From: Deltaproteobacteria bacterium
GTDB lineage: Bacteria; Bdellovibrionota; JACOXK01
Length of the DNA: 64,000 bases
Assembly (NCBI GenBank): GCA_016186995.1
Contig: JACPKQ010000024.1
Span: 1 to 64,000 of the forward strand
Reading direction: 5' to 3'
The notes below the pieces were generated by a model. It saw nothing but the letters and a program-made list of their open reading frames with translations, searched no databases and was not told the origin of the DNA. Numbering within the stretch: position 1 is the first letter of the stretch; each line of letters starts with the position of its first letter. Below are positions 7,124 through 61,151 of the stretch, piece after piece. The position numbers were made by a program, and so were the translations under genes.

Positions 7124-7139
7124 TGGCATAAGCATTGCA
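7124..7139 (+). promoter_or_regulatory. Sigma-54 (-24/-12) promoter for the subtilase
   Basis: The sequence TGGCATAAGCATTGCA matches the TGGCAY-N5-TTGCW consensus. GG (7125-7126) and GC (7137-7138) are separated by exactly 10 nt. It lies about 31 nt before the subtilase ATG. Regulators able to use it (bEBPs) are encoded at 48596-50164 and 59541-61151; the link is inferred. Confidence 0.8.
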
Positions 7140-8690: not shown

Positions 8691-9401
8691 ATGACCGAAT
8701 TACACAAAACAGTTCTTATCACAGGAGCCAGTCGTGGCATAGGACGTGCTATAGCCCTTCTTTTTGCTGAACACGGAGCTCATGTTCTTCTCACAGCTCG
8801 AACTTCTCAAGAACTTCAAAAACTTAAAGAAGAAATTGAAAAGAAAAAAGGAAAAGCTTCGTTTCTTGTCCTAGATCTTTTAAAAGACGAAGATATCCAC
8901 AGTTTAGCGAAGTGGGCTGTGGATAAAGACATTGATATTCTCATTAATAATGCAGGGTGTGGTTTTAAAGGAGCCTTTCACAAAATTTCTACAAAAGATA
9001 TGGATAGGGTTCTTCACATTAATCAAAGAGCTCCTATGCTTTTAACTAAACTTCTTCTGCCCCATTTTTTTAAAAAACAATCAGGTACTATTATTAATAT
9101 TGCTTCCATTGCAGGAAAGATAGGGATAGCACACAGCGTCAGTTACTGTGCTTCAAAACATGCTGTTGTTGGATTTACCCATGCACTTTTTGAAGAAGTG
9201 AGAGAAAAAAATATTAAAGTTGCTACCATTTGCCCAGGTTATGTGGATACAGAGCTTATTCCAGAAACAAAAAAAATAAATAGAGAAAAAATGATAAGAC
9301 CGGAAGATGTTGCCAAAGCTTGTCTTTTTATAGCAACATCTTCCAAAGAATCGTGCCCGATCGAAATGATCATTCGACCTCAAGTCAATCCGCGCAATTA
9401 A
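8691..9401 (+). CDS. Short-chain dehydrogenase/reductase
   Basis: 236 aa classical SDR. It has the nucleotide-binding TGASRGIG (residues 11-18), NNAG, and the catalytic S139-Y152-x3-K156 (YCASK). It should be a cytoplasmic NAD(P)(H)-dependent oxidoreductase. The closest pattern is FabG/YdfG-like, but neighbours do not reveal the substrate. It stands alone after a terminator and is convergent with the lipoprotein gene, the two 3' ends overlapping by 4 nt. Confidence 0.9.
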   Translation: MTELHKTVLITGASRGIGRAIALLFAEHGAHVLLTARTSQELQKLKEEIEKKKGKASFLVLDLLKDEDIHSLAKWAVDKDIDILINNAGCGFKGAFHKISTKDMDRVLHINQRAPMLLTKLLLPHFFKKQSGTIINIASIAGKIGIAHSVSYCASKHAVVGFTHALFEEVREKNIKVATICPGYVDTELIPETKKINREKMIRPEDVAKACLFIATSSKESCPIEMIIRPQVNPRN

Positions 9402-10423
9402 AAATAAGTGGGTCTGCCGTCAAAAGTATATTTCGTTCTTTCATCACTTGTCTTGCTATTCACAAAAATATGCCCTGCAAGCTTACCTGTACTTTCGATA
9501 ACAACTAAATCAACAATAATAGTAGCTGCTTCAGTTTCAAAAGTTGCGTTAATATCTGAATATTCTGAAATGCTTAGCTCTTGGCTTACACCTAAAATGG
9601 ATTCACCGTCTTTTGTTATTTCAATGCTTGCCATAGGTGAATTAAAAACAATGTTTAAGTGAAGAGCGCCAGTTACATCATACCCTTCAAGTCTTTGAGG
9701 CACTTCTACCGGCTCATTGTGAAGTCTAGGTTCATCAGAAGAATCTTCTTCAACGCCAGCACCCTCAGTTAAACGACACATAATTTCTTCAAAGGTTGTA
9801 TTGTAAGAATGTCTGTAGGTTTCAGTTTCTTTATATTCGCTTACACCTTCTGCCGCATCTATTTTTACAATTTTTTCATAATTGTAATCTAAATGATAAG
9901 AAACGCTTACAAGAGGTGGATTTGAAAAATCAAAAATCCAATAAGAATACCCACTCCATTTTTCATCTGTCTTTGTTGCTTCATCATTGTGAGACTTTTC
10001 AAAATCTGAATCAAAACGAATAGAGTGATCATTAATATTACTGATACGAAAATCTTTAAAGAGAATACTATCTTCTCCTGCTTCACCTTGAAGAGGCTTC
10101 ACAGAAAGAATACCATCATGATAAGCCATGTTCATATCTTGACCAAATTCACTCTTTGAAAATTCTGGAAGCATACCTTGGCCGGTCACTACACCACCCA
10201 TGTTTTGAAACGTAAAATGGTAAGAACCATTTTTAAAGGATTGCATAATCTGATTTGCTCTTTCTAAAAGAGCAATTTGATGTGCGTCAGAAATAATACC
10301 ACTATCATGAACTTCTTCTGGTAAAAATGCGACAGAGGACTTATCCACCTCTAATGAGGACTGACATCCAAACCCTAAAAAACCAAAGGTGAAAACTAAA
10401 ACTAAAAACTTTATATTTTTCAT
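9398..10423 (-). CDS. Predicted lipoprotein of unknown function
   Basis: 341 aa from ATG at 10421-10423, preceded by GGAG. An open frame runs upstream to 10465 but would place the signal peptide internally. Signal peptide with lipobox LGFGC, so C20 or nearby is lipidated. The mature part has no recognised motif: acidic, rich in beta-forming stretches, with a central region (about 160-215) with aromatic-rich stretches (SGYSYWIFDF, SVSYHLDYNYEK). It shows no positive match to any family I know. No co-directional neighbour gives context. It is probably anchored to the outer or inner membrane. Confidence 0.75.
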   Translation of the reverse strand: MKNIKFLVLVFTFGFLGFGCQSSLEVDKSSVAFLPEEVHDSGIISDAHQIALLERANQIMQSFKNGSYHFTFQNMGGVVTGQGMLPEFSKSEFGQDMNMAYHDGILSVKPLQGEAGEDSILFKDFRISNINDHSIRFDSDFEKSHNDEATKTDEKWSGYSYWIFDFSNPPLVSVSYHLDYNYEKIVKIDAAEGVSEYKETETYRHSYNTTFEEIMCRLTEGAGVEEDSSDEPRLHNEPVEVPQRLEGYDVTGALHLNIVFNSPMASIEITKDGESILGVSQELSISEYSDINATFETEAATIIVDLVVIESTGKLAGHIFVNSKTSDERTKYTFDGRPTYF

Positions 10424-10460
10424 ATACACTCCTTTTTTTCGAGTTATTTCAAAGTTTCCT

Positions 10461-10542
10461 GTCATTGCGAACGTAGTGAAGCAATCTCATCACCAAAGGT
10501 GATGGGATAGCCACGTCGCCTTTTCAGGCTCCTCGCTATGAC
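10461..10542. repeat. Palindromic element, family A, copy 1
   Basis: Outer arms GTCATTGCGA / TCGCTATGAC enclose two inner hairpins (CATCACC/GGTGATG and GCCTTTTCAGGC). Related copies lie at 12632-12712 (inside a CDS) and 59248-59327. It is followed by GGAATGACA, the end motif of family C. Confidence 0.85.
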
Positions 10543-10655
10543 AAGCACGCGCTCGGAATGACAATTCATATGCAAAGCAATGACCGTGCCAAACAAATAA
10601 ACAAGTAATTACAAATAGTTAACTAAATAATACCTATTTTAGATGCCCTAAAAAA

Positions 10656-16746: not shown

Positions 16747-16950
16747 AAAGATCCCCCTTTAAGCCTGGCCGGCTTCCCCTATTGTCTTTCAATACTGCTT
16801 GGAATTCTTTGTGAACTGAACTTGTTCCGCCTGATAATAAGCATATTATCAAATCTTTAAAACCGTAGCAATCCTTTTATCGTGGCGCGTCAAAATGTTA
16901 TGTGAAAATAAGTATTCAAAATGCCCATGGAGAGCGCTATATAAGGAAAT

Positions 16951-17367
16951 ATGTTGTCTCAATTCTTCTTTTATGGAGCTCTTTGCCACAATGGCACATA
17001 TTTCAAAACTCATTCAGGCTCTGCTTTTTCTCTACAAAAAGCCTATACCTATGGAACTCTTTATGAGGGAAAGCACGGGTATGCCTATCTTATCCTCGAC
17101 ATTCACAAAACTAAAAAAGTCTATGGCGAAATATTTATGTTTCAAAATGAAGAAGTGTTTAAAAAGTTGGACTCATTAGAAGGTTTTATTGATAGAAATA
17201 ATCCGTCTAATCTTTACGAAAGAAAAAAAATAATATCCTATACAATAGATCATAATCAAAAATATGAAACTTGGGCTTATCTTTGTCCACCTCATTTAGA
17301 AAAAAATATTATTGAAAATTGCGTACTTATTCAAAGTGGAAGATGGGAAAAGCGACCAAGGCTTTAA
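16951..17367 (+). CDS. Gamma-glutamylcyclotransferase-fold protein (GGCT/AIG2-like)
   Basis: 138 aa. The N-terminal FFYGALCHNG corresponds to the YGxL substrate loop of the fold, followed by GTLYEGKHGYAYL, LDSLEGF and YERKKI. The acidic residue in LDSLEGF is at the place of the catalytic Glu. It may release 5-oxoproline from gamma-glutamyl peptides or amines, but this family includes many proteins of unknown substrate. It stands alone; ATG at 16951 is chosen because the YG motif follows closely. Confidence 0.8.
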   Translation: MLSQFFFYGALCHNGTYFKTHSGSAFSLQKAYTYGTLYEGKHGYAYLILDIHKTKKVYGEIFMFQNEEVFKKLDSLEGFIDRNNPSNLYERKKIISYTIDHNQKYETWAYLCPPHLEKNIIENCVLIQSGRWEKRPRL

Positions 17368-17438
17368 TTTTAGTTAATTTTTGTAAAGAATATTTACACA
17401 TATCTTTCTTAAGTGTTACTCATAAGTTAAAGAGATTT

Positions 17439-17453
17439 TGATAATCATTGTCA
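17439..17453 (+). promoter_or_regulatory. Fur-box-like operator
   Basis: TGATAATCATTGTCA matches the 7-1-7 Fur motif TGATAAT-N-ATTATCA with one mismatch. It overlaps a possible -35 (TTGATA, 17438-17443), so iron-loaded Fur would block a promoter firing into 17470 and beyond. Confidence 0.6.
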
Positions 17454-17469
17454 TTTTTTGTTTATACAT

Positions 17470-17702
17470 TGAACACAAAAATAACCTTTTTTAAATGACC
17501 CTTATCTACCAAAAGGCCCCAAAGCCCTTGAAATACAAGGGTTTTATAAAGTACTTGATCTTTGGCATGGGCTTTGCTATTACCTATCGACGTAAAATCC
17601 AAACAGAAGCTTTCAAAGAACACCTTCTGTCGAATTTTACACAACACAACGATACCTTATGGAAAACAGCCTTGGCATCCCCGCCGGGGCTGTTTTCTTT
17701 TT
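17470..17702 (+). ncRNA. Putative Fur-controlled small RNA
   Basis: About 230 nt between the Fur-box promoter and a strong terminator. It contains stem AAGCCCTTG/CAAGGGTTT (near 17522-17545), stem ACAGAAG/CTTCTGT (near 17602-17629) and the terminator hairpin. A 74-codon ORF (17495-17719) is open here but has no SD, and its end reads through the terminator, so a non-coding role is preferred. The 5' end is approximate. Function by analogy with RyhB-type iron-sparing RNAs is speculation. Confidence 0.45.
17663..17702 (+). terminator. Rho-independent terminator
   Basis: AAAACAGCC (17663-17671) pairs with GGCTGTTTT (17688-17696), with an inner CCCC/GGGG stack, followed by TTTTCTTTTT. 17703-18044 is very A/T-rich with no gene seen. 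Confidence 0.8.
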
Positions 17703-18044
17703 GGGGATTTTTTTTGTGAATTATGTCATGCCTCAAGTGAAACGAAGGATCTATCTTTTTTCTTTGAAACTTTCTAAAAAAAATATTTTTAATATTTATC
17801 TATAAATTTATATTCATCTTATTTTTTAACTAGGAACAAATAAAAAATAATTTTTATTTCCACATAAAAAAATCTTTAATTCCCAAGTTTCAAAACCCTC
17901 TTTTCCTTTTTTTGAACTTATTCTTCTAAAAACTTTTTTACTCTCTTCAAAGTCATTTTTTCCAGAATTTTTCATACATCAGACTTCAAAATAGAAAAAA
18001 ATCTTAAATATTTGAAAAAAAGGGGGATTTTTTGATTTTTTTTG

Positions 18045-18073
18045 TTGCAAGTTAGAACTTTTGTTCTTAAAAT
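18045..18073 (+). promoter_or_regulatory. Promoter with GAAC-N4-GTTC palindrome in the spacer
   Basis: TTGCAA (18045-18050), 17-nt spacer, TAAAAT (18068-18073). The spacer contains AGAACTTTTGTTCT (18054-18067), whose core GAAC-N4-GTTC equals the LexA (Cheo) box of Gram-positives. It could be a repressor site; the identity of the regulator is inferred only from this resemblance. Confidence 0.55.
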
Positions 18074-18143
18074 AAATATTATGTCGGTTGGGGAAATAAG
18101 TTTTTTTATTATAACTAAATCTTTCTAAAAGGAGGATGTAAAA

Positions 18144-18290
18144 ATGGCTAAGAAGAAAAAGAAAGGACGTAAAAAAACAAAAGCAGCTCCAAAGAAAAAA
18201 ATGAAACATAAAAAGAAAAAAGCTGCTCCTAAGAAGAAAAAAACAAAAAAAGCAAAGAAGAAAAAAGCAACTAAGAAGAAAAAGAAGTAA
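18144..18290 (+). CDS. 48-aa lysine-rich (histone H1-like) protein
   Basis: The peptide is almost only Lys, Ala, Thr and Pro (MAKKKKKGRKKTKAAP at the start, AAPKKKKTKKAKKKK later) and resembles the C-terminal tails of H1-like or AlgP-like proteins. A very strong SD (AAAAGGAGG, 18128-18136), a good promoter and a perfect terminator show a dedicated monocistronic gene that is probably highly expressed. It likely binds DNA or RNA electrostatically. Its composition is like the N-terminal tail of RpoD in this genome. Confidence 0.8.
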   Translation: MAKKKKKGRKKTKAAPKKKMKHKKKKAAPKKKKTKKAKKKKATKKKKK

Positions 18291-18307
18291 GTTTTTTTCA
18301 TATAGAA

Positions 18308-18339
18308 AAAAGCCGCCTCATAAAGGCGGCTTTTTTTTT
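18308..18339 (+). terminator. Rho-independent terminator of the lysine-rich protein gene
   Basis: AAAGCCGCC and GGCGGCTTT form a 9-bp stem with a 7-nt loop, followed by a run of nine T. Confidence 0.93.
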
Positions 18340-18455
18340 GTCTTCATGTACCATCTCCATCCTATTAAGCCCCACCTCCTTTTTTACATGCCGTTGACAA
18401 GCAAGATTTGGCTATGCTACGACCTAGAGCACAGTAACAAAAGGAGGCTATTTTT

Positions 18456-18725
18456 ATGACAACTACTACCCCACAAAATGTTCGAAATGTACCACTGGAA
18501 GAGTTGGTACACACTAAACTGGAGTCCTTTTTAGACCAAACAGAAGGTGTCGCTTTAGATAGTCTCTATTCAACAATCATACAAACTGTTGAAAAGCCTC
18601 TCATTCAGCTTGTTCTTAGAAAAACACGTGGGAACCAAGTTAAGGCTTCCAGAATTTTGGGTATTAATAGAAATACTTTACGTAAAAAAATTAATACTTT
18701 AAATATTCAAGTTAAAAAGAATTAA
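18456..18725 (+). CDS. Fis-family DNA-binding protein
   Basis: 89 aa. The C-terminal HTH_8 region (about 46-85: [20 protein letters not shown], then [11 protein letters not shown]) is the Fis/bEBP-type helix-turn-helix. The N-terminal 45 aa would form the dimerisation helix. Length matches stand-alone Fis (about 98 aa). SD AAAAGGAGG precedes the ATG and a TTGACA lies upstream at 18393. It is probably a nucleoid-associated regulator, but could also be a detached bEBP output domain. It is convergent with the 53-aa gene, with one base between stops. Confidence 0.85.
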
Positions 18726-18726
18726 T

Positions 18727-18888
18727 TCACTGTTCTAAAATATCTTTTAGAAGAGCTTCCGTAAAACATCGTAGTTGTGAGAGGGTTATATTTTCTGGAT
18801 CATAGCCTTGCTCAAGGAGCATTTCCTTGAGAAGAGGATGTGGTAATCCTGAAAGGCTGATAACTTCGTTAAAAAGTTCGTTCCCCAT
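18727..18888 (-). CDS. 53-aa conserved-looking small protein
   Basis: A 53-codon frame starting MGNELFNEVISLSG and ending EALLKDILEQ. It is acidic, helical and ordinary in codon use, with GGGA 5-6 nt before the ATG. The pattern of an N-terminal helix, a short PENITL turn and an amphipathic C-terminal helix resembles small uncharacterised proteins I recall from other delta-type genomes, but I cannot name a family. It lies upstream of nothing and downstream of pabB on the same strand (61 bp gap). Confidence 0.6.
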   Translation of the reverse strand: MGNELFNEVISLSGLPHPLLKEMLLEQGYDPENITLSQLRCFTEALLKDILEQ

Positions 18889-18949
18889 TTTGTCCCGATA
18901 CTTTTTAGACTTCTTAACGAAATGCTATAACTTCTTGCCCAAAACACCC

Positions 18950-20257
18950 TTACAAATTGTCTACAATCATTTTAGCTTTGACAAGTGTTTCTTCGTACTC
19001 CTCAAAAGGATCTGAATCGATTACAATACCCCCACCCACATGAAAATAATGTTGATCTTCTTTGGTTACAAGTGTTCGTATCGCAATATTAAGATCTAAA
19101 TTTCCTCTAAAATCAAAATAACCAATACTTCCTGTGTAAATGCCCCTTGAAACAGGCTCTAACTCTTCAATAATGTGCATAGCCCTTTTTTTAGGAGCAC
19201 CTGTAATAGACCCCCCTGGAAAGGTAGACATAAGAACTTCCATTATTTTTATATTTTCTTTAATCCTTCCTTTAACGGTACTTACTAAGTGATGCACTTT
19301 TTCAAAAGAATACACCTTCATAAACTCTGGAACACTTACACTTCCGGCTTGTGAAATACGTCCTAAATCATTGCGCTCAAGATCTACAATCATGACATGC
19401 TCGGCACGGTCTTTTTCACTCTCTTCTAGCCTTTGCATCTGTCTTAAATCTTCTCTCAAAGTAACTCCTCGAGGTGTTGTCCCTTTAATAGGTTGGGTTA
19501 TAATATTTCCTTGTAAATCAAGCTTTAAGAACCTTTCTGGAGAGAAAGAAACAATTGTAAAAAGGTTGAAATTTAAAAAGGCACTATGGGGTTCATACAC
19601 AAGTTGGGGCATAAGCTTGATAAGAGTACTTCGTGGAGCATTAAAAGAGAGTCGATACGCAAAATTCACCTGATAAGTCTCTCCATTATAGAGATAATCT
19701 TTAACTTTTTGGATAGAAGAAAAGTATTTTTCTTGAGGAAGACAACTATGAAGTTTGATGGGGTGTTCTTCTACTTCAAAAAATTTTTTATCATAGGGAA
19801 TTTTAAGCCAATCTAAAGACTTTTTAAGATCTTTCTTATTCTGATAAGAAATAAAAACCTTATTTGTAGCATGTTCATAAATAAAAAGAGCCTCATAAAC
19901 ACCTAAAGCATAAAGAGGCATGTTAAGATCATCCTTGGAACAAGAAGAAATACCATAAATATGTTTTCCAAGATCGTAACTTAAATATCCAACTAACCCT
20001 CCTCTTAAAAGAGAATCATAGGAAGAATAAGAAAGACTTTTTTTCTCCTGTCTTATATATTCCGAAAGTATCATGTTTAAAGATTCCAAAGGTTTTTTTT
20101 CATGACATGAATCAAAGAAGTAAGATGGATTCATTCCAAAATAGGAATATCCCTCGTCTCCCTTTTTAAGATAAAAAGATTTTTCTTCGTTAAAGATTTT
20201 AAAAAGAAGTGCTTCTAAAGATATCCGATGAGGCGATTCAAAAAGATAAGAATACAT
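18950..20257 (-). CDS. pabB: Aminodeoxychorismate synthase component I
   Basis: 435 aa chorismate-binding enzyme that makes 4-amino-4-deoxychorismate for folate. The PIKGT motif with K258 distinguishes PabB from TrpE (PIAGT). DLERNDLG, FPGGSITGAPK and YTGSIGYFD are the conserved active-site segments. The N-terminal domain (about 1-150) is degenerate but present. No pabA or pabC is adjacent, so the amidotransferase subunit is encoded elsewhere. The start ATG has no overlapping gene; the upstream region is filled with palindromic repeats. Confidence 0.93.
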   Translation of the reverse strand: MYSYLFESPHRISLEALLFKIFNEEKSFYLKKGDEGYSYFGMNPSYFFDSCHEKKPLESLNMILSEYIRQEKKSLSYSSYDSLLRGGLVGYLSYDLGKHIYGISSCSKDDLNMPLYALGVYEALFIYEHATNKVFISYQNKKDLKKSLDWLKIPYDKKFFEVEEHPIKLHSCLPQEKYFSSIQKVKDYLYNGETYQVNFAYRLSFNAPRSTLIKLMPQLVYEPHSAFLNFNLFTIVSFSPERFLKLDLQGNIITQPIKGTTPRGVTLREDLRQMQRLEESEKDRAEHVMIVDLERNDLGRISQAGSVSVPEFMKVYSFEKVHHLVSTVKGRIKENIKIMEVLMSTFPGGSITGAPKKRAMHIIEELEPVSRGIYTGSIGYFDFRGNLDLNIAIRTLVTKEDQHYFHVGGGIVIDSDPFEEYEETLVKAKMIVDNL

Positions 20258-47358: not shown

Positions 47359-48297
47359 TTAATGCTGAATCAAACCGTATTTCTCAACCTTTTGTATGAG
47401 TCCTGAGCGACTAATACCCAGCTCGCGCGATGTTTTTGATTTATTCCAGTTTGTTCGAACAAGGCTTTCTAAAATCATTGCTTTTTCAAGTTTTTCCAAC
47501 GCAGCCGTTAAATCTTCCTGTGTTTTTAAAATGGAGGACATGTGTTTTGCAGATTCTCCAACAATGCGTGAAGAAACCATTTCAGTTGCCCATTTATTCA
47601 TATGTCCATATTTTTTAATCAAATATCTTATTTCTTCTTTAAGTTCACCCACATTAAGTGGCCAATGGTAATCAATCAATTTTCCAAGGAGTTGGTGAGA
47701 AAAATGCACCATTCCTTTTTTGTCTTCAGAAAATTTAGCTACAAAAAAATCAATCAAGGGTAGAACATCTTCTTTTCTTTCTCTTAAAGGTGAGAGATAA
47801 AAATGAATTCTTCGAAAATGATAAAGAAGTTGATATTTAAAATGAATAAGTTTCTCTAAAGCAATAGAAGTCGCTGCGATGACCCGCGCCCCTTGCATGC
47901 TTTTCTTTTGCCATTTTAAATAAGAAACAAGTTCTTCCTGAAGAGTAGATGTTAAACGATCTATTTCTTCAATAAAAACAGTTGATCCATTTAAAGATTT
48001 AAATTTTTCAAAAGAATCATTTTCAACATCAAAAATAAAGAAGTTTTTTGGATTGTGCACGTGACAGTGCATTTCAAGAGCAAGAGATTTCTTTCCTGTC
48101 CCCATTTCTCCTTCAATGAGAACAGGAGTTAAACTATCACTGTGATTGTGAGCTGCTCGGAAAATACTTTGAATATATTCATTCTTACTAAACAAGGCAC
48201 CAAAATGAGTGAGTCGATCATTACAAGTATAAATTGAAAATTCTCTCTTAGTTTCTTTGAGTTTTATACTTTCTTTCACACTTTTTAAAGATTGCAT
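47359..48297 (-). CDS. Degenerate sigma-54 activator paralogue lacking the GAFTGA loop
   Basis: 312 aa. AAA+ region (about 30-235) with Walker A GEMGTGKKS, but the segment that normally carries ESELFGH...GAFTGA is missing: HVHNPKNFFIFDVEND runs directly into GSTVFIEEIDRL. Walker B has E for D (FIEEID). The C-terminal Fis HTH (WNKSKTSRELGISRSGLIQK) is nearly the same as that of the bEBP upstream. Without the GAFTGA loop it should not remodel sigma-54, so a repressor or modulator role by site competition or mixed oligomers is inferred. It has its own sigma-54 promoter. Confidence 0.85.
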   Translation of the reverse strand: MQSLKSVKESIKLKETKREFSIYTCNDRLTHFGALFSKNEYIQSIFRAAHNHSDSLTPVLIEGEMGTGKKSLALEMHCHVHNPKNFFIFDVENDSFEKFKSLNGSTVFIEEIDRLTSTLQEELVSYLKWQKKSMQGARVIAATSIALEKLIHFKYQLLYHFRRIHFYLSPLRERKEDVLPLIDFFVAKFSEDKKGMVHFSHQLLGKLIDYHWPLNVGELKEEIRYLIKKYGHMNKWATEMVSSRIVGESAKHMSSILKTQEDLTAALEKLEKAMILESLVRTNWNKSKTSRELGISRSGLIQKVEKYGLIQH

Positions 48298-48350
48298 CTA
48301 TTCCCCCAAGAGGAGTGTTACTTAAGGGTGTCATCTTGCGTGAGGGAAAG

Positions 48351-48366
48351 AGCAAAAGCTATGCCA
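48351..48366 (-). promoter_or_regulatory. Sigma-54 (-24/-12) promoter for the degenerate activator
   Basis: Minus strand TGGCATAGCTTTTGCT: GG and GC separated by exactly 10 nt, TTGCT at -12. The -12 element lies about 55 nt before the ATG at 48297. The rest of the 298-bp gap (48298-48595) is A/T-rich with no gene seen. Confidence 0.8.
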
Positions 48367-48595
48367 TAAAAAAAACTAAACTTAACCCCTTGATATCACT
48401 TATTTATTTAAAAAAATCCAAAAAACTGAATAATGTCGCTAACGTAAAGGATTTAGTCATTAATGAGTGTTAAAAAACTACTGAAATTACTAAGGTATTT
48501 GAAACAATGGGGTTTTTATCTCTTGTAGAAATAATGTACAAGAATGTCTAGAGACTTCAAGAAAATAAAAAGGGGTGATAAGAACCAAAAAAAAT

Positions 48596-50164
48596 TTATT
48601 GAGATTCTGCTTTTTTAAGCATTTTTCTCTTATCAAGTCCGTACTTTTCAACTTTCATAATAAGCCCAGCACGACTGATCCCGAGTTCTTTAGCTAAGCG
48701 TGATTTATTCCACCCGGTTCTTCTTAACCCTTCTCGTATCATTTCTCGTTCAAGCTCTTCTAAAGCATCTTTAAGCTTTCCCTGAACACGAACACCTTGA
48801 ATTTTACTTCTCTCACCAAAGGTGCGTATTCTTTCTGAAAGCATTTCAACAGGAACTTTTTGCTCATCACCAGAAAGAACGACAAGTCTTTCAATTTCAT
48901 TTTCAAGCTCTCGAATATTACCTGGCCAATTATAATCAAAGACCTTCTCCAGAGCTCTCTTTGTTAAAACTTTTTTCTTTTCCCCTCTTTCTTTAGCAAT
49001 TTTTTCAATAAAATGATCAATAAGAAGAGGAATATCTTCTTTTCTTTCCCTTAGTGCCGGAACACGAATATTAATAACATTCAGTCTATAATAAAGATCT
49101 TCACGAAACTCACCTCTTTCTACCATTCCTTTAAGATCTTTATTGGTAGCTGCAAGAATTCTCACATCAACTTTCTTAGGAGATGTAGCACCTACAGGAA
49201 TGAAAGTGCCTTCTTGTAAAACTCTTAAAAGTTTTACTTGCATCGAAGGAGAGGTATCTGCAATTTCATCGAGAAGAAAGGTTCCCCCATCGGCTACTTC
49301 AAAAAGACCTTTTTTGTCCTTGATAGCGCCTGTAAAAGACCCTTTCACGTGACCAAAAAGTTCTGAATCAAGGAGATTTTCGTTAAATGCAGAACAGTTT
49401 TGGGTTACAAAAATTTTATCCTTTCGAGGACTGTTGTAATGAATAGCTCGAGCGATAAGTTCTTTACCCGTACCATTATCTCCTTCAATCATAACTGTAC
49501 TTTCGCTATTTTTAATCTTATCTAAAAGACCGTAGACCTCTTGCATAGGCCTACTTTTTCCGATCATGGCATCATATTTATAACGAACACCTAACTCTTT
49601 ATTAAGTTCACTGATTCTTGCGTCTCTTGAAGATATTTCGGTATGAAGCGTCATAATTTCTTGAGCGACAAGATCGACAAGCTCAGTAAAATGATCAATA
49701 TCTTCAGATTTAACAACTTTAATTTTAGAAAGGGCTTCATCGACACTTTGTCCTGAAAAACCCATTTTTTTAAGTTTACTTTCAAGCGTTTTAAGGTTCT
49801 CTTGCATTCCTTCTTTTAAAAAACCTACTCCTAAAACTACGCCGATAAACTCATTATCAATGGTAATGGGAACAACAAGACTTGAAATTCCTAAATCAAG
49901 ATTTCTAAAAAGATATCTTTCTTCGGATTCTTTCATCTCTTGAACTGCTTTTTTTGAAAAATCTGAAAGCATATCCCAACCTGTATCTGTTTGAAGAATA
50001 AGATTACAGACGAGATTTTTGTACTCTTTTGCTTTCTCTCGTTCTATACCTCGAATATAACCTCGATCATCGGCAAAAAAGACCTCGGTATGCCACCATT
50101 TGGATAGAATTTCACGTAATTTTCTAATAACGTGAATGTGCTCAAACTCATCCCAGTTAACCAT
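48596..50164 (-). CDS. Sigma-54-dependent transcriptional activator with PocR-like sensor
   Basis: 522 aa from ATG at 50164, which has GGAGGGAG 6-7 nt upstream (the frame start at 50179 overlaps that SD). The N-terminal domain (about 1-185; ILSKWWHTEVFFADDRG, LVCNLILQTDTGW) resembles PocR/GAF-type ligand sensors. AAA+ with Walker A GDNGTGKE, loop KGSFTGA (A to S variant of GAFTGA) and LLDEIAD. The C-terminal Fis HTH ends near WNKSRLAKELGISRAGLIMK. A competent bEBP; likely controls sigma-54 promoters such as 48351 and 7124 (inferred). Confidence 0.93.
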   Translation of the reverse strand: MVNWDEFEHIHVIRKLREILSKWWHTEVFFADDRGYIRGIEREKAKEYKNLVCNLILQTDTGWDMLSDFSKKAVQEMKESEERYLFRNLDLGISSLVVPITIDNEFIGVVLGVGFLKEGMQENLKTLESKLKKMGFSGQSVDEALSKIKVVKSEDIDHFTELVDLVAQEIMTLHTEISSRDARISELNKELGVRYKYDAMIGKSRPMQEVYGLLDKIKNSESTVMIEGDNGTGKELIARAIHYNSPRKDKIFVTQNCSAFNENLLDSELFGHVKGSFTGAIKDKKGLFEVADGGTFLLDEIADTSPSMQVKLLRVLQEGTFIPVGATSPKKVDVRILAATNKDLKGMVERGEFREDLYYRLNVINIRVPALRERKEDIPLLIDHFIEKIAKERGEKKKVLTKRALEKVFDYNWPGNIRELENEIERLVVLSGDEQKVPVEMLSERIRTFGERSKIQGVRVQGKLKDALEELEREMIREGLRRTGWNKSRLAKELGISRAGLIMKVEKYGLDKRKMLKKAESQ

Positions 50165-50418: not shown

Positions 50419-51135
50419 TTATTGATTACTATTTGTGCTAGTTAAATTCTCTAAAGTCACATCCGAAGGTGTCTGAAAACGAAAATCTTCTTTACCTACG
50501 AGAGGGTGAAGTGAAGTTTCTTTATGTTTTTCGAAAAGCTTTTGGTTGAGTTTCACGTCAGAAAAAGAAACAACAGTTGTCTTGTTTAAATCATAACGAA
50601 TTCTTAATCCCATGAGTAAAAAGGTTTTAAAATCATAAATAAGCTCAATTCTATGTACATTCGGAATTTTTTTCTTGGGATAAAGAGCTAAAACCTTATC
50701 ATCTTCTTTACCTAAAAACTGCACAACAAAATAATCTTCAAGCTTTCCAGAACTTTTAAGAAACAATATTGTAATTTTAGATATAAAATCATCCTCAGAC
50801 AAAAGCGAATAATAGACAATCTTTTCGCTTGGTTGGTAAAGCCATTGCTCACGATTAGAAATAACCAAGAGTTCTTCTTTGGAATCAGGATTTTTTGTAT
50901 GCCATAAAAACTTTCCTGGTCTTATAGAAAAAATCTTACCTGTCGAAGTTGTTTTCTTATCGAAAAGCTCTTGAATAATAGTTTGTTCAAAGTTCATTTC
51001 AATATCATCAATTTTCGAATATTTCTGTTCTATTTTATTAAGAATATCTTTAACTGTAATAGGATTTAAAATTGGAGTACCTGGAAAACACATCCCATGA
51101 AATAAAAACACCATTATGAAAAAAGTCTTTTTCAT
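50419..51135 (-). CDS. lolA: Outer-membrane lipoprotein carrier LolA
   Basis: 238 aa from ATG at 51133-51135 (the frame stays open to 51363 without start support). Signal peptide (about 1-18), then the LolA half-barrel: MNFEQTI, GKIFSIRPGKFLWHT, LVISNREQWLYQP and IELIYDF. It carries lipoproteins from LolCDE to the outer membrane, which supports a Gram-negative cell and the several lipoproteins in the window. Divergent from pdaD. Confidence 0.88.
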   Translation of the reverse strand: MKKTFFIMVFLFHGMCFPGTPILNPITVKDILNKIEQKYSKIDDIEMNFEQTIIQELFDKKTTSTGKIFSIRPGKFLWHTKNPDSKEELLVISNREQWLYQPSEKIVYYSLLSEDDFISKITILFLKSSGKLEDYFVVQFLGKEDDKVLALYPKKKIPNVHRIELIYDFKTFLLMGLRIRYDLNKTTVVSFSDVKLNQKLFEKHKETSLHPLVGKEDFRFQTPSDVTLENLTSTNSNQ

Positions 51136-51217
51136 AAGACAACCGTACCTTCGAAAAATCTTCTTGGAAACATATTTTTTGCTTGCATGGCTTCCAAAAA
51201 CTATATATATCGAGATT

Positions 51218-51760
51218 ATGTATATCCCAAAGGAAATGTTTCTTACAAAAGGGGTTGGAAGACACAAGGAAATGCTTGCATCCTTTGAAGAAGCTCTACG
51301 TGGTGGAGGTATTGCACATTTTAATCTTGTAACTGTTTCAAGTATTTTTCCACCACACTGCAAAATTGTCGCACCTAATGTTGGTTTAGAAAAGTTAAAA
51401 CCTGGTCAAGTAGTGCACGTTGTTATGAGTCGTTGCCAAACCGATGAACACAGAAGGCTTATTGCAGCCTCTGTCGGTGTTGCTCGGCCTAAAGACCCAG
51501 ATCAGTTTGGTTATCTTTCTGAACATCACAGTTATGGAGAAACAGAAAATGAAGCTGGGGATTATGCTGAAGATTTAGCAGCCTCTATGCTTGCCACCGT
51601 TCAAGGTGTTGAGTATGACCCGGCTCTTGCATGGGATGAGAAAAAAGAAATTTTTAAAATCGATGGCAAAATTGTGGGTACAAGAAACATCACTCAAACT
51701 GCTCTAGGGCAAAAAGGCTTCTGGACAACAGTCATTGCCGCAGCTGTACTCATTCCTTAA
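51218..51760 (+). CDS. pdaD: Pyruvoyl-dependent arginine decarboxylase
   Basis: 180 aa from ATG at 51218. The self-cleavage site VSSIFPP (S41-S42) yields the pyruvoyl group, followed by GQVVHVVMSRCQT, HHSYGETENEAGDYAE and the C-terminal GFWTTVIAAAV. It converts arginine to agmatine. This family is typical of archaea and chlamydiae and patchy in other bacteria. Immediately followed by the agmatinase gene. Frame extends upstream to 51116 but that part overlaps lolA's 5' end and is not conserved. Confidence 0.93.
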   Translation: MYIPKEMFLTKGVGRHKEMLASFEEALRGGGIAHFNLVTVSSIFPPHCKIVAPNVGLEKLKPGQVVHVVMSRCQTDEHRRLIAASVGVARPKDPDQFGYLSEHHSYGETENEAGDYAEDLAASMLATVQGVEYDPALAWDEKKEIFKIDGKIVGTRNITQTALGQKGFWTTVIAAAVLIP

Positions 51761-51764
51761 TTTC

Positions 51765-52646
51765 ATGATCATGAAAAATTTTGGTGGTCTTTCAAAACAA
51801 GAGGCTCTTTTTGAAAAATCAAAATTTGTTGTTATCTCTCTTCCTTATGACCAAACAGCTTCTTATCAAAAAGGAAGTGTAAATGGCCCAGAAGCCATTC
51901 TTGATGCATCCTATCAAGTCGAACTTTATGATGAAGAACTTAAACAGGAAACTTACAAACTAGGTATTTATACTTATCCTCATTTTGATATTTCTGGAAA
52001 ACCAGAAGAAATGATTGAAAAAATCCTTCCTGTTTACAGAAAGCTTCTTAAAGAAACAGATAAAGTTCTTGTTGGATTGGGTGGAGAACACTCTGTGAGC
52101 TATGCCCCTATCAAGGCTTATAAAGAAAAATTTCCAAATCTTTCCATTCTTCATTTTGATGCTCATGCAGATTTGAGAGATGGCTATGAAGGAGAGAGGT
52201 TTAGCCACGCTGCTGTGATGCGAAGGGTTTCAGAACTCTGCCCTATCACACAAATTGGCATTCGAAATTATTCTATTGGAGAGGTACCCCTTGTAGAAGG
52301 TGAAAATAACAATATTCACACCTATCTTTGGCATGAACACTTACCTTTAGAAAAATATCACGATGAAATTATAGAAACACTTTCAGATACTGTTTATATT
52401 TCTTTTGATACAGATGGTTTTGACCCAGCTGTTTTTCCTGGAACAGGAACTCCGGAACCGGGAGGGCTTACGTGGTATGATGTCACTTCACTTGTAAGAA
52501 AAGTTTCGAAGATTTCGAAAATTGTTGGGTTTGATGTTGTTGAACTCATGCCCTTACCTCACAATAAAGTCTCAGATTTTACGGCTGCTAAGCTTGTTTA
52601 CCGCTTCATGGGATATGCAGCTCAAAGTCTCAAGTGGCACATTTAA
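51765..52646 (+). CDS. speB: Agmatinase (ureohydrolase family)
   Basis: 293 aa. Mn-binding motifs GGEHSVSY, FDAHADLRD and SFDTDGFDP in order. It cleaves agmatine to putrescine and urea, completing the route begun by PdaD; 4 bp separate the genes (ATG at 51765 or 51771). The last step is convergent with uvrA, whose stop overlaps. Confidence 0.93.
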   Translation: MIMKNFGGLSKQEALFEKSKFVVISLPYDQTASYQKGSVNGPEAILDASYQVELYDEELKQETYKLGIYTYPHFDISGKPEEMIEKILPVYRKLLKETDKVLVGLGGEHSVSYAPIKAYKEKFPNLSILHFDAHADLRDGYEGERFSHAAVMRRVSELCPITQIGIRNYSIGEVPLVEGENNNIHTYLWHEHLPLEKYHDEIIETLSDTVYISFDTDGFDPAVFPGTGTPEPGGLTWYDVTSLVRKVSKISKIVGFDVVELMPLPHNKVSDFTAAKLVYRFMGYAAQSLKWHI

Positions 52647-59540: not shown

Positions 59541-61151
59541 ATGAGGGATGATAAAAGAGCCATACAGTTAAAAATCGTTAATGAAGTTGCTGAACTCATT
59601 CTCTCAACCCTTGATCTTAAAAAACTTTACGATGAAGTCCTTCATAAAATTCAACAAAAATTTGAATACTTTCACCTTTCTTTTTGGCTTTTAGACCGAA
59701 AAACAAATAATCTTGTTTTGACAGCCCATGCTGGATATGAAGAGCCCAAAGTTCAAATTGGTTATAGACTTCCAGTCAATAATGGCATCTTAAGTTGGGT
59801 TGTTCAAAACCAAAAATCAAGACTTGTTCCTAACACAAGTTTAGAACCCGATTTTGTTAAATTAAGTCCTGAGTCAGCAAAAATTAAATCTGAGGTTGCC
59901 TCTCCGGTAAAGCTTCATGAACAGTTCATTGGGGTACTCGATATCGAAAGTGAAAATCTTGCTGGTTTTGATGATTTTGATGTGCTTGTTCTTGAAACTA
60001 TTGCGAACCAATTTGCTATAGCTATTCACAACGCTCATCTTTATGAAGAAATAAAATCTTTCAACTCCGTACTTAACCAAAAAGTTCGAGAAAAAACAGA
60101 AGAGCTACGAGTCGCTCATCAAAAAATTTTAGAACAAAAAAGAGATCTTAAAAAAGAAAACCAAAATTTAAAAACAATTATTTCTTCTCACCAAAATTAT
60201 AATGATACAGATCCTGTTGGAGAATCTAAAGCTTTGCAATCGCTTTTAAATATGGTCGATAAAATTGCTCCAACCAATGCAACAGCCCTTATCCAAGGAG
60301 AAAGCGGAACAGGAAAAGAACTCATTGCAAAAAGACTTCATGAAAGAAGTCACCGCACTAAAAAACCTTATGTCACTATTAACTGTGGTGCTCTTCAAGA
60401 AACACTTCTTGAGTCAGAACTTTTTGGACATGAAAAGGGCTCCTTTACAGGAGCCCACGTCCAGAAAATTGGATTGGCAGAAACGGCTGATGGTGGAACT
60501 CTTTTTCTAGATGAAATTGGGGAATTAGGAGCAGGAATCCAAGCAAAAATTCTTCGTTTCTTACAGGAAGGAGAAATCTACAGAGTAGGTGGTAAAAAAG
60601 CTCTCAAGATTGACGTAAGAATTATTTCTGCAACAAATAAAGATCTTGAAAAAGAAGTTAAAGAAGGCCATTTTCGAGAAGATCTTTACTACAGAATTAA
60701 TACCATTACTTTAAGAATACCTCCTTTAAGAAAAAGAAAAGAAGATATTCCCCTTCTCGTCAATTATTTCCTTAAAAATAGTAAATATGGTGGAATGACT
60801 CACAAATCTATTTCTACAGAGGCTATGGAACTTCTTCAAGAATATGATTGGCCAGGAAATATTCGTGAACTGCAAAACGTTATTGAAAGAATTAAAATTT
60901 TAGCAGAAGGAGATATGATTGCTCCAGATGATATTCGCTATAATATTCAATTCCCAGTAAGAACCAAAGCTCATCTGCCAGACATGACATCTTCAACTCT
61001 GCCTTTAGAAGAGCTTGAAAGAACTCATATTTTAAGAACCTTAGATTTTTACAAAGGAAATAAAACAAAAGCAGCACATGCCTTAGGAATTACAATTAAA
61101 ACACTTTATAACAAACTTCACAAATATCATCCTGATTTGGTAGAACATTAA
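59541..61151 (+). CDS. Sigma-54-dependent activator with GAF sensor
   Basis: 536 aa. GAF domain (about 5-170), coiled coil (about 175-215), AAA+ (about 225-455) with Walker A GESGTGKE, loop KGSFTGA, LFLDEIGE and the arginine-finger region, then a Fis HTH (KTKAAHALGITIKTLYNKL). Fully equipped bEBP. The GAF ligand is unknown. The stop is followed by repeats and the tRNA-Val fragments. Confidence 0.95.
   Translation: MRDDKRAIQLKIVNEVAELILSTLDLKKLYDEVLHKIQQKFEYFHLSFWLLDRKTNNLVLTAHAGYEEPKVQIGYRLPVNNGILSWVVQNQKSRLVPNTSLEPDFVKLSPESAKIKSEVASPVKLHEQFIGVLDIESENLAGFDDFDVLVLETIANQFAIAIHNAHLYEEIKSFNSVLNQKVREKTEELRVAHQKILEQKRDLKKENQNLKTIISSHQNYNDTDPVGESKALQSLLNMVDKIAPTNATALIQGESGTGKELIAKRLHERSHRTKKPYVTINCGALQETLLESELFGHEKGSFTGAHVQKIGLAETADGGTLFLDEIGELGAGIQAKILRFLQEGEIYRVGGKKALKIDVRIISATNKDLEKEVKEGHFREDLYYRINTITLRIPPLRKRKEDIPLLVNYFLKNSKYGGMTHKSISTEAMELLQEYDWPGNIRELQNVIERIKILAEGDMIAPDDIRYNIQFPVRTKAHLPDMTSSTLPLEELERTHILRTLDFYKGNKTKAAHALGITIKTLYNKLHKYHPDLVEH

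Follow-up and report, generated by a model that had tools for sequence, protein, structure and literature searches.

We found that a complete sigma-54 activator (the long protein) is encoded directly ahead of a paralogue (the short protein) that has lost its catalytic residues, has kept a Fis-type HTH and lies behind a conserved sigma-54 promoter. We give about an even chance to the reading that the long protein switches on this paralogue, which is catalytically dead and shares its sites and would then be a negative-feedback governor of the regulon. The pair was studied in a stretch of 64,000 nucleotides (the window; positions 1 to 64,000 of contig JACPKQ010000024.1, assembly GCA_016186995.1). 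The host genome (G000) has 1.68 Mb, belongs to Bdellovibrionota and has one RpoN.

The long and short proteins

Both open reading frames were found where the initial annotation had placed them (Table 1). In the long protein, Pfam detected PF00158 (2.3e-67), PF10114 PocR (3.2e-9) and PF02954 HTH_8 (2.7e-12); these correspond to a PocR sensor, a full sigma-54 AAA+ domain and an HTH of Fis type. The loop, the complete ATPase site and the HTH of a functional activator are all present. The L1 loop motif reads GSFTGA, a normal variant of GAFTGA, and the catalytic, loop, sensor and finger residues were intact in all long proteins examined. Orthologues occur across Bdellovibrionota (51-81% identity), and 80 relatives of the long gene from named genomes all carried the label Bdellovibrionota or older labels for it. 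Judged by these sequences, it is a sigma-54 activator that is conserved in Bdellovibrionota; we found no published study on it in the open-access literature searched.

Table 1. Features of the activator locus (window coordinates)
Feature	Position	Strand	Remarks
Long gene, complete sigma-54 enhancer-binding protein	48596..50164	-	522 aa; alternative start 50179 gives 527 aa
PocR sensory domain, long protein	49646..50011	-	PF10114, residues 57-178 of the 527-aa form
L1 loop of long protein, KGSFTGA	49325..49345	-	absent in short protein
HTH of long protein, GWNKSRLAKELGISRAGLIMKVEKYGL	48635..48715	-	Pfam and HTH comparison
Candidate upstream activator site TCTTGTA-N9-TACAAGA	48521..48543	-	core TGT-N11-ACA 48524-48540; p=0.02 vs shuffles
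-24/-12 promoter of short gene, TGGCATAGCTTTTGCT	48351..48366	-	exact pattern match, conserved in orthologues
Short gene, loop-less catalytically degenerate paralogue with Fis-type HTH	47359..48297	-	312 aa
Walker A of short protein, GEMGTGKK, retained	48088..48111	-	residue table
Degenerate Walker B of short protein, VFIEEI	47962..47979	-	residue table
Degenerate arginine-finger region of short protein, HFKYQLLYHF	47815..47844	-	residue table
HTH of short protein, NWNKSKTSRELGISRSGLIQKVEKYGL	47371..47451	-	Pfam and HTH comparison

The short protein was recognised by Pfam through Sigma54_activ_2, AAA_lid_14 and HTH_8, with a reduced AAA+ domain. It shares 34% identity with the long protein over 319 aa (E 2e-44), which makes the two paralogues. 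With its homologous AAA+ domain and Fis-type HTH (Pfam, Foldseek, tree), it is a sigma-54 enhancer-binding protein by descent. The AlphaFold2 model (pLDDT 84) gave a confident AAA+ plus HTH fold, and its nearest solved structures in Foldseek were NtrX, ZraR, NtrC1, FleQ and PspF. None of the named NCBIfam equivalogs (PrdR, DhaR, AtoC, TyrR and others) scored above the curated cut-off, the best reaching 114.9 bits vs 795.

The initial annotation had described a protein without the GAFTGA loop, with an altered Walker B and a retained Walker A, and this proved correct. The L1 loop is deleted in all short proteins, and Walker B reads IEEI instead of the intact LDEI. The sensor I Asn is gone as well (N to S), as are both R-fingers (FREDLYYR to FKYQLLYH) and the sensor II Arg (GNIREL to LNVGEL). 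From the set of Walker A/B, sensor I, R-fingers and sensor II, the Walker A Lys alone remains. When nine HTH-bearing short proteins (G000-G006, G010, G018) were compared, this lysine was present in 9/9, while the GAFTGA loop, switch Asn, Walker B Asp, sensor I Asn and sensor II Arg were missing in 9/9; the arginine-finger pair was never intact. The short protein is predicted to be unable to hydrolyse ATP or engage sigma-54, though it may still hold nucleotide.

Conservation and history of the pair

The pair, which the initial annotation had suggested looking for in relatives, is conserved. A short form with an HTH was found in only ten of 369 Bdellovibrionota genomes (G000-G006, G010, G018 and G032); it lies directly after the long gene in nine of these ten genomes and about 6 kb off in G032. 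At 39 further loci near the long gene we found a relative of 143-401 aa with no recognisable HTH or Walker A. This is the form of Bdellovibrionaceae and relatives, and most relatives keep the short gene without its HTH. The best matches of a model of the HTH-less form were still sigma-54 activators (DmpR, a bEBP P-loop domain and NtrC1).

In a tree of 50 proteins, a quick build with long branches that is backed by synteny and folds, all short forms fell into one clade (SH-aLRT 100), sister to the long clade (90). The HTH-less short proteins made up one group (97), with the HTH-bearing G032 protein as its sister. This is most simply explained by a single old duplication and a later loss of the HTH.

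As dS was saturated between the window and its sister genome, selection was measured on G005 and G006 only. There, dN/dS was 0.051 for the short gene (AAA 0.040, HTH 0.016) and 0.035 for the long gene. The reading frame of the short gene was intact in every HTH-bearing genome. The short gene is under purifying selection and is not decaying.

The shared HTH

The claim of near-identical Fis helices held when the HTHs of the two proteins were compared (ELGISRSGLIQKVEKYGL vs ELGISRAGLIMKVEKYGL): 20/27 residues were identical, against at most 11/27 between the short HTH and those of six further enhancer-binding proteins encoded in this genome. The recognition helix is nearly invariant. The short protein is probably able to bind the same boxes as the long protein. 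Two recognition-helix positions consistently differ between short and long proteins (A to S, M to Q), which speaks against a governor. Elsewhere in the window (18456-18725, +), an 89-aa ORF resembles a stand-alone Fis protein.

The sigma-54 promoter of the short gene

A perfect -24/-12 promoter had been noted before the short gene, and searches with the pattern TGGCAYN5TTGCW confirmed it as a genuine signal, with 49 matches in the 1.68-Mb genome and 0 in the reversed control. In 1.44 Mb around the long gene from about 100 related loci, the pattern matched 14 times; ten of these matches, in seven distinct genomes, were immediately upstream of an HTH-bearing short gene. An element was found before all ten HTH-bearing short genes, exact in G000-G006 and G018, near-exact in G010 and weak in G032. 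Genome-wide counts were 37 in G001, 77 in G002, 58 in G004, 36 in G010 and 31 in G018 (controls 1-2), but only 18 vs a control of 5 in the 4-Mb G048, which belongs to an HTH-less lineage. Recognisable elements were also enriched before HTH-less short genes (7/33 vs 1.3 expected), which argues that the sigma-54 promoter of the short gene is probably ancestral.

The 49 host promoters mostly precede lipoprotein, secreted, pilus and protease genes. The sigma-54 regulon of this genome consists mainly of exported proteins (lipoproteins, Tad pilus genes, proteases) and also takes in a flagellar/sporulation-type sigma factor and a ComM-like gene. Further exact -24/-12 promoters of the window are located at 7124-7139 (+), before a subtilisin-like protease (7170), and at 10576-10591 (-), before a lipoprotein-like gene (9398-10465).

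A candidate activator site

TGT-N11-ACA boxes, which precede many sigma-54 promoters, are the probable recognition sites of the long protein; this candidate site rests on a correlation across genomes. The idea came from dyads before the short gene in G000 and G001, and the N11 signal from testing TGT-ACA pairs by spacing. An exact-dyad search for a site common to the 49 host promoters gave nothing above shuffles. Within 250 bp upstream of these promoters, TGT-N11-ACA was present at 14/49 vs 3.0 expected (maximum 8 in 60 shuffles), and most spacings neighbouring N11 were at chance level. A refined matrix was over-fitted, having been trained on the promoters that it scores, so we relied on the untrained N11 count and the spacing control. 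An A three bases from the box centre, which had not been selected for, was 74% conserved.

The box was also found at sigma-54 promoters of G001 (10/30 vs 2.9), G002 (13/52 vs 2.2) and G048 (5/18 vs 0.7). It was weak in G010 (4/30 vs 1.6), a point against the governor. In family f10, whose nearest homologue carries a different recognition helix (FQITRQGLLKKIGKY), the count was 3/69 vs 2.2. Taken together, four genomes with the long protein (G000, G001, G002, G048) had the box at 42/149 promoters vs 3/69 for f10 (Fisher p=2e-5). Because enrichment tracks the long protein across genomes, we infer that TGT-N11-ACA is its site.

Upstream of the short promoter itself, a box was located at -176 in the window (p=0.02), at -171 in the sister genome G001 (0/200 shuffles as high) and at -138 in the distant relative G018 (p=0.005). 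No TGT-N11-ACA box was found near the short promoter in G002-G006 or G010, and this again argues against a governor. The palindrome ATTCTTAAATTTAAGAAT, kept 75-105 bp before the short promoter in G002-G006 (with variants in G003 and G004), was rejected as the activator site as it does not fit TGT-N11-ACA. In pooled sigma-54 promoters of seven genomes, TGT-N13-ACA (22/158) and TGT-N7-ACA (20/158) also exceeded the expected value of about 8; these boxes may be sites of other activators. One more exact -24/-12 promoter of the window (17563-17578, +) has two TGT-N11-ACA boxes but is not followed by a convincing long ORF; the region 16750-18950 contains small ORFs only, one of them lysine-rich and 48 aa long (18144-18290).

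A possible governor and its alternatives

The sequences themselves show that domains were lost, that the promoter is conserved, that selection is purifying and that the two proteins have a common origin and share an HTH; which activator drives the short promoter, that sites are shared in vivo and that the sign is negative is what we infer. A retained DNA head, combined with the loss of hydrolysis and sigma-54 contact and with a sigma-54 promoter that has a probable box, makes a governor the best reading and restraint the likeliest effect of the short protein. The long protein would bind TGT-N11-ACA boxes and switch on many sigma-54 promoters, with the promoter of its downstream paralogue among the targets. 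The short protein would accumulate while the regulon is on and would limit output by occupying boxes, by forming mixed rings with the long protein, or both; the two modes are compatible and not mutually exclusive. A duplicate that still reads DNA and is probably switched on by the sigma-54 system it would restrain points to an intrinsic brake on a large genetic programme.

The activator/anti-activator interpretation of the initial annotation, in which the short protein competes for shared sites or enters mixed hexamers, is partly supported. The shared HTH is accompanied by the candidate TGT-N11-ACA site and by a box before the short gene, but most relatives have HTH-less orthologues, so DNA competition cannot explain the whole family. 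The same relatives argue for protein contact as the older or more general part. A wider claim, which we hold with somewhat less than even confidence, is that dead activator duplicates, each beside one conserved sigma-54 activator, form a family of dedicated governors in Bdellovibrionota. Where the sigma-54 regulon is large, the duplicate would be sigma-54-driven and read the same TGT-N11-ACA boxes; in Bdellovibrio-type genomes it would be a DNA-blind pseudo-AAA subunit working by protein contact only.

A different activator of this genome could instead drive the short promoter, which would count against a governor. The sign could also be positive. Dead subunits need not inhibit, since PspF hexamers remain functional with Walker-B-dead subunits in alternating positions (PMC4132715). 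We think it rather unlikely, though a serious alternative, that the short protein is a co-activator which, like FleT with FleQ, joins the long protein in hetero-oligomers that certain promoters require or that are adjusted to them. The precedents are that fleT is transcribed from a FleQ/sigma-54 promoter and that the FleQ-FleT complex activates later genes (PMC7277832), that hetero-oligomers are known for other paralogous activator pairs (PMC9542535) and that PspF rings tolerate dead subunits; the persistence of HTH-less orthologues likewise implies protein contact. However, GAFTGA, Walker B, R-fingers and sensors I and II have all been lost together here, which goes far beyond any subunit tested in these systems.

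The other serious alternative, which also seems unlikely, is that the short protein regulates sigma-70 promoters independently, as TyrR, HupR and Caulobacter NtrC do, with its sigma-54 promoter merely bringing it into the regulon as a second-tier repressor or activator. Loop-less relatives do act at sigma-70 promoters (PMC3162934, PMC12421884), its HTH is the part under strongest constraint and two helix positions are unlike those of the long protein. Yet the gene is tightly linked to the long gene across the class, the HTH similarity is specific to the long protein, and the HTH-less orthologues are incapable of acting alone on DNA. A decaying duplicate without function, to which the many lost catalytic residues and long tree branches might point, is very improbable given a dN/dS of 0.05, intact frames, a promoter conserved across families and the nearly invariant recognition helix; on the same dN/dS, the reading of the short gene as a pseudogene was rejected.

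Relation to known systems

Several known systems come close to this pair. In the FleQ/FleT system of Rhodobacter sphaeroides, the activator turns on a second enhancer-binding-protein paralogue from a sigma-54 promoter, and the paralogue then acts with the activator. In the window, a sigma-54 promoter and a candidate activator site precede the short gene. FleT has no HTH and is listed with an activator domain, whereas the short protein of the window has an HTH but neither the activator loop nor the catalytic residues; it is the HTH-less Bdellovibrionaceae orthologues that resemble FleT in this respect. The FleQ/FleT example indicates that wiring of this kind can be positive (PMC7277832, PMC9542535). 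HrpR/HrpS, RedR1/RedR2 and the VnfA paralogues are similar in being paralogous activators with interaction or dependence between the partners. Reports describe them as activators that need or modulate one another, whereas one partner of the present pair is, by its sequence, catalytically dead.

TyrR, DhaR, HupR and Caulobacter NtrC also lack the sigma-54 contact motif (GAFTGA) and keep a Fis-type HTH, and the short protein shares both traits. They are reported at sigma-70 promoters, whereas the short gene adjoins an intact paralogue and lies behind a sigma-54 promoter. The anti-activators HrpV, NifL, PspA and FleN each restrain a specific sigma-54 activator and are not known to be enhancer-binding-protein paralogues; the brake proposed here, unlike them, is a duplicate of the activator itself.

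Loop-less activators (PMC3162934, PMC12421884) and interacting activator paralogues (PMC9542535) are thus already known. In the open-access literature searched we found no loop-less, catalytically dead paralogue beside an intact activator and behind a conserved sigma-54 promoter, which is no proof of novelty. If the governor reading is true, an activator would be under the control of its own degenerate copy throughout a phylum of predatory bacteria. The graded set of short proteins (HTH and Walker A, HTH only, neither) offers a natural dissection of DNA competition vs mixed-ring formation, and TGT-N11-ACA and the regulon are candidates for the site and targets of a conserved Bdellovibrionota activator.

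Gene neighbourhood

Next to the activator locus, the window carries adjacent pyruvoyl-dependent arginine decarboxylase-like and agmatinase-like genes (51116-52646, +), an agmatine-to-putrescine pair. A second complete sigma-54 activator, with an apparent N-terminal GAF domain, is encoded at 59541-61151 (+). At four Bdellovibrio-type loci (L051, L056, L059, L060), two genes come after the HTH-less short gene. They are like the L051 pair, an APH-type kinase and a nucleotidyltransferase with resemblance to AmgK-MurU of peptidoglycan recycling (Pfam on the L051 pair only). In family f2 (L044-L048), propionyl-CoA carboxylase and methylmalonyl-CoA mutase genes are found downstream of the pair (Pfam on L044).
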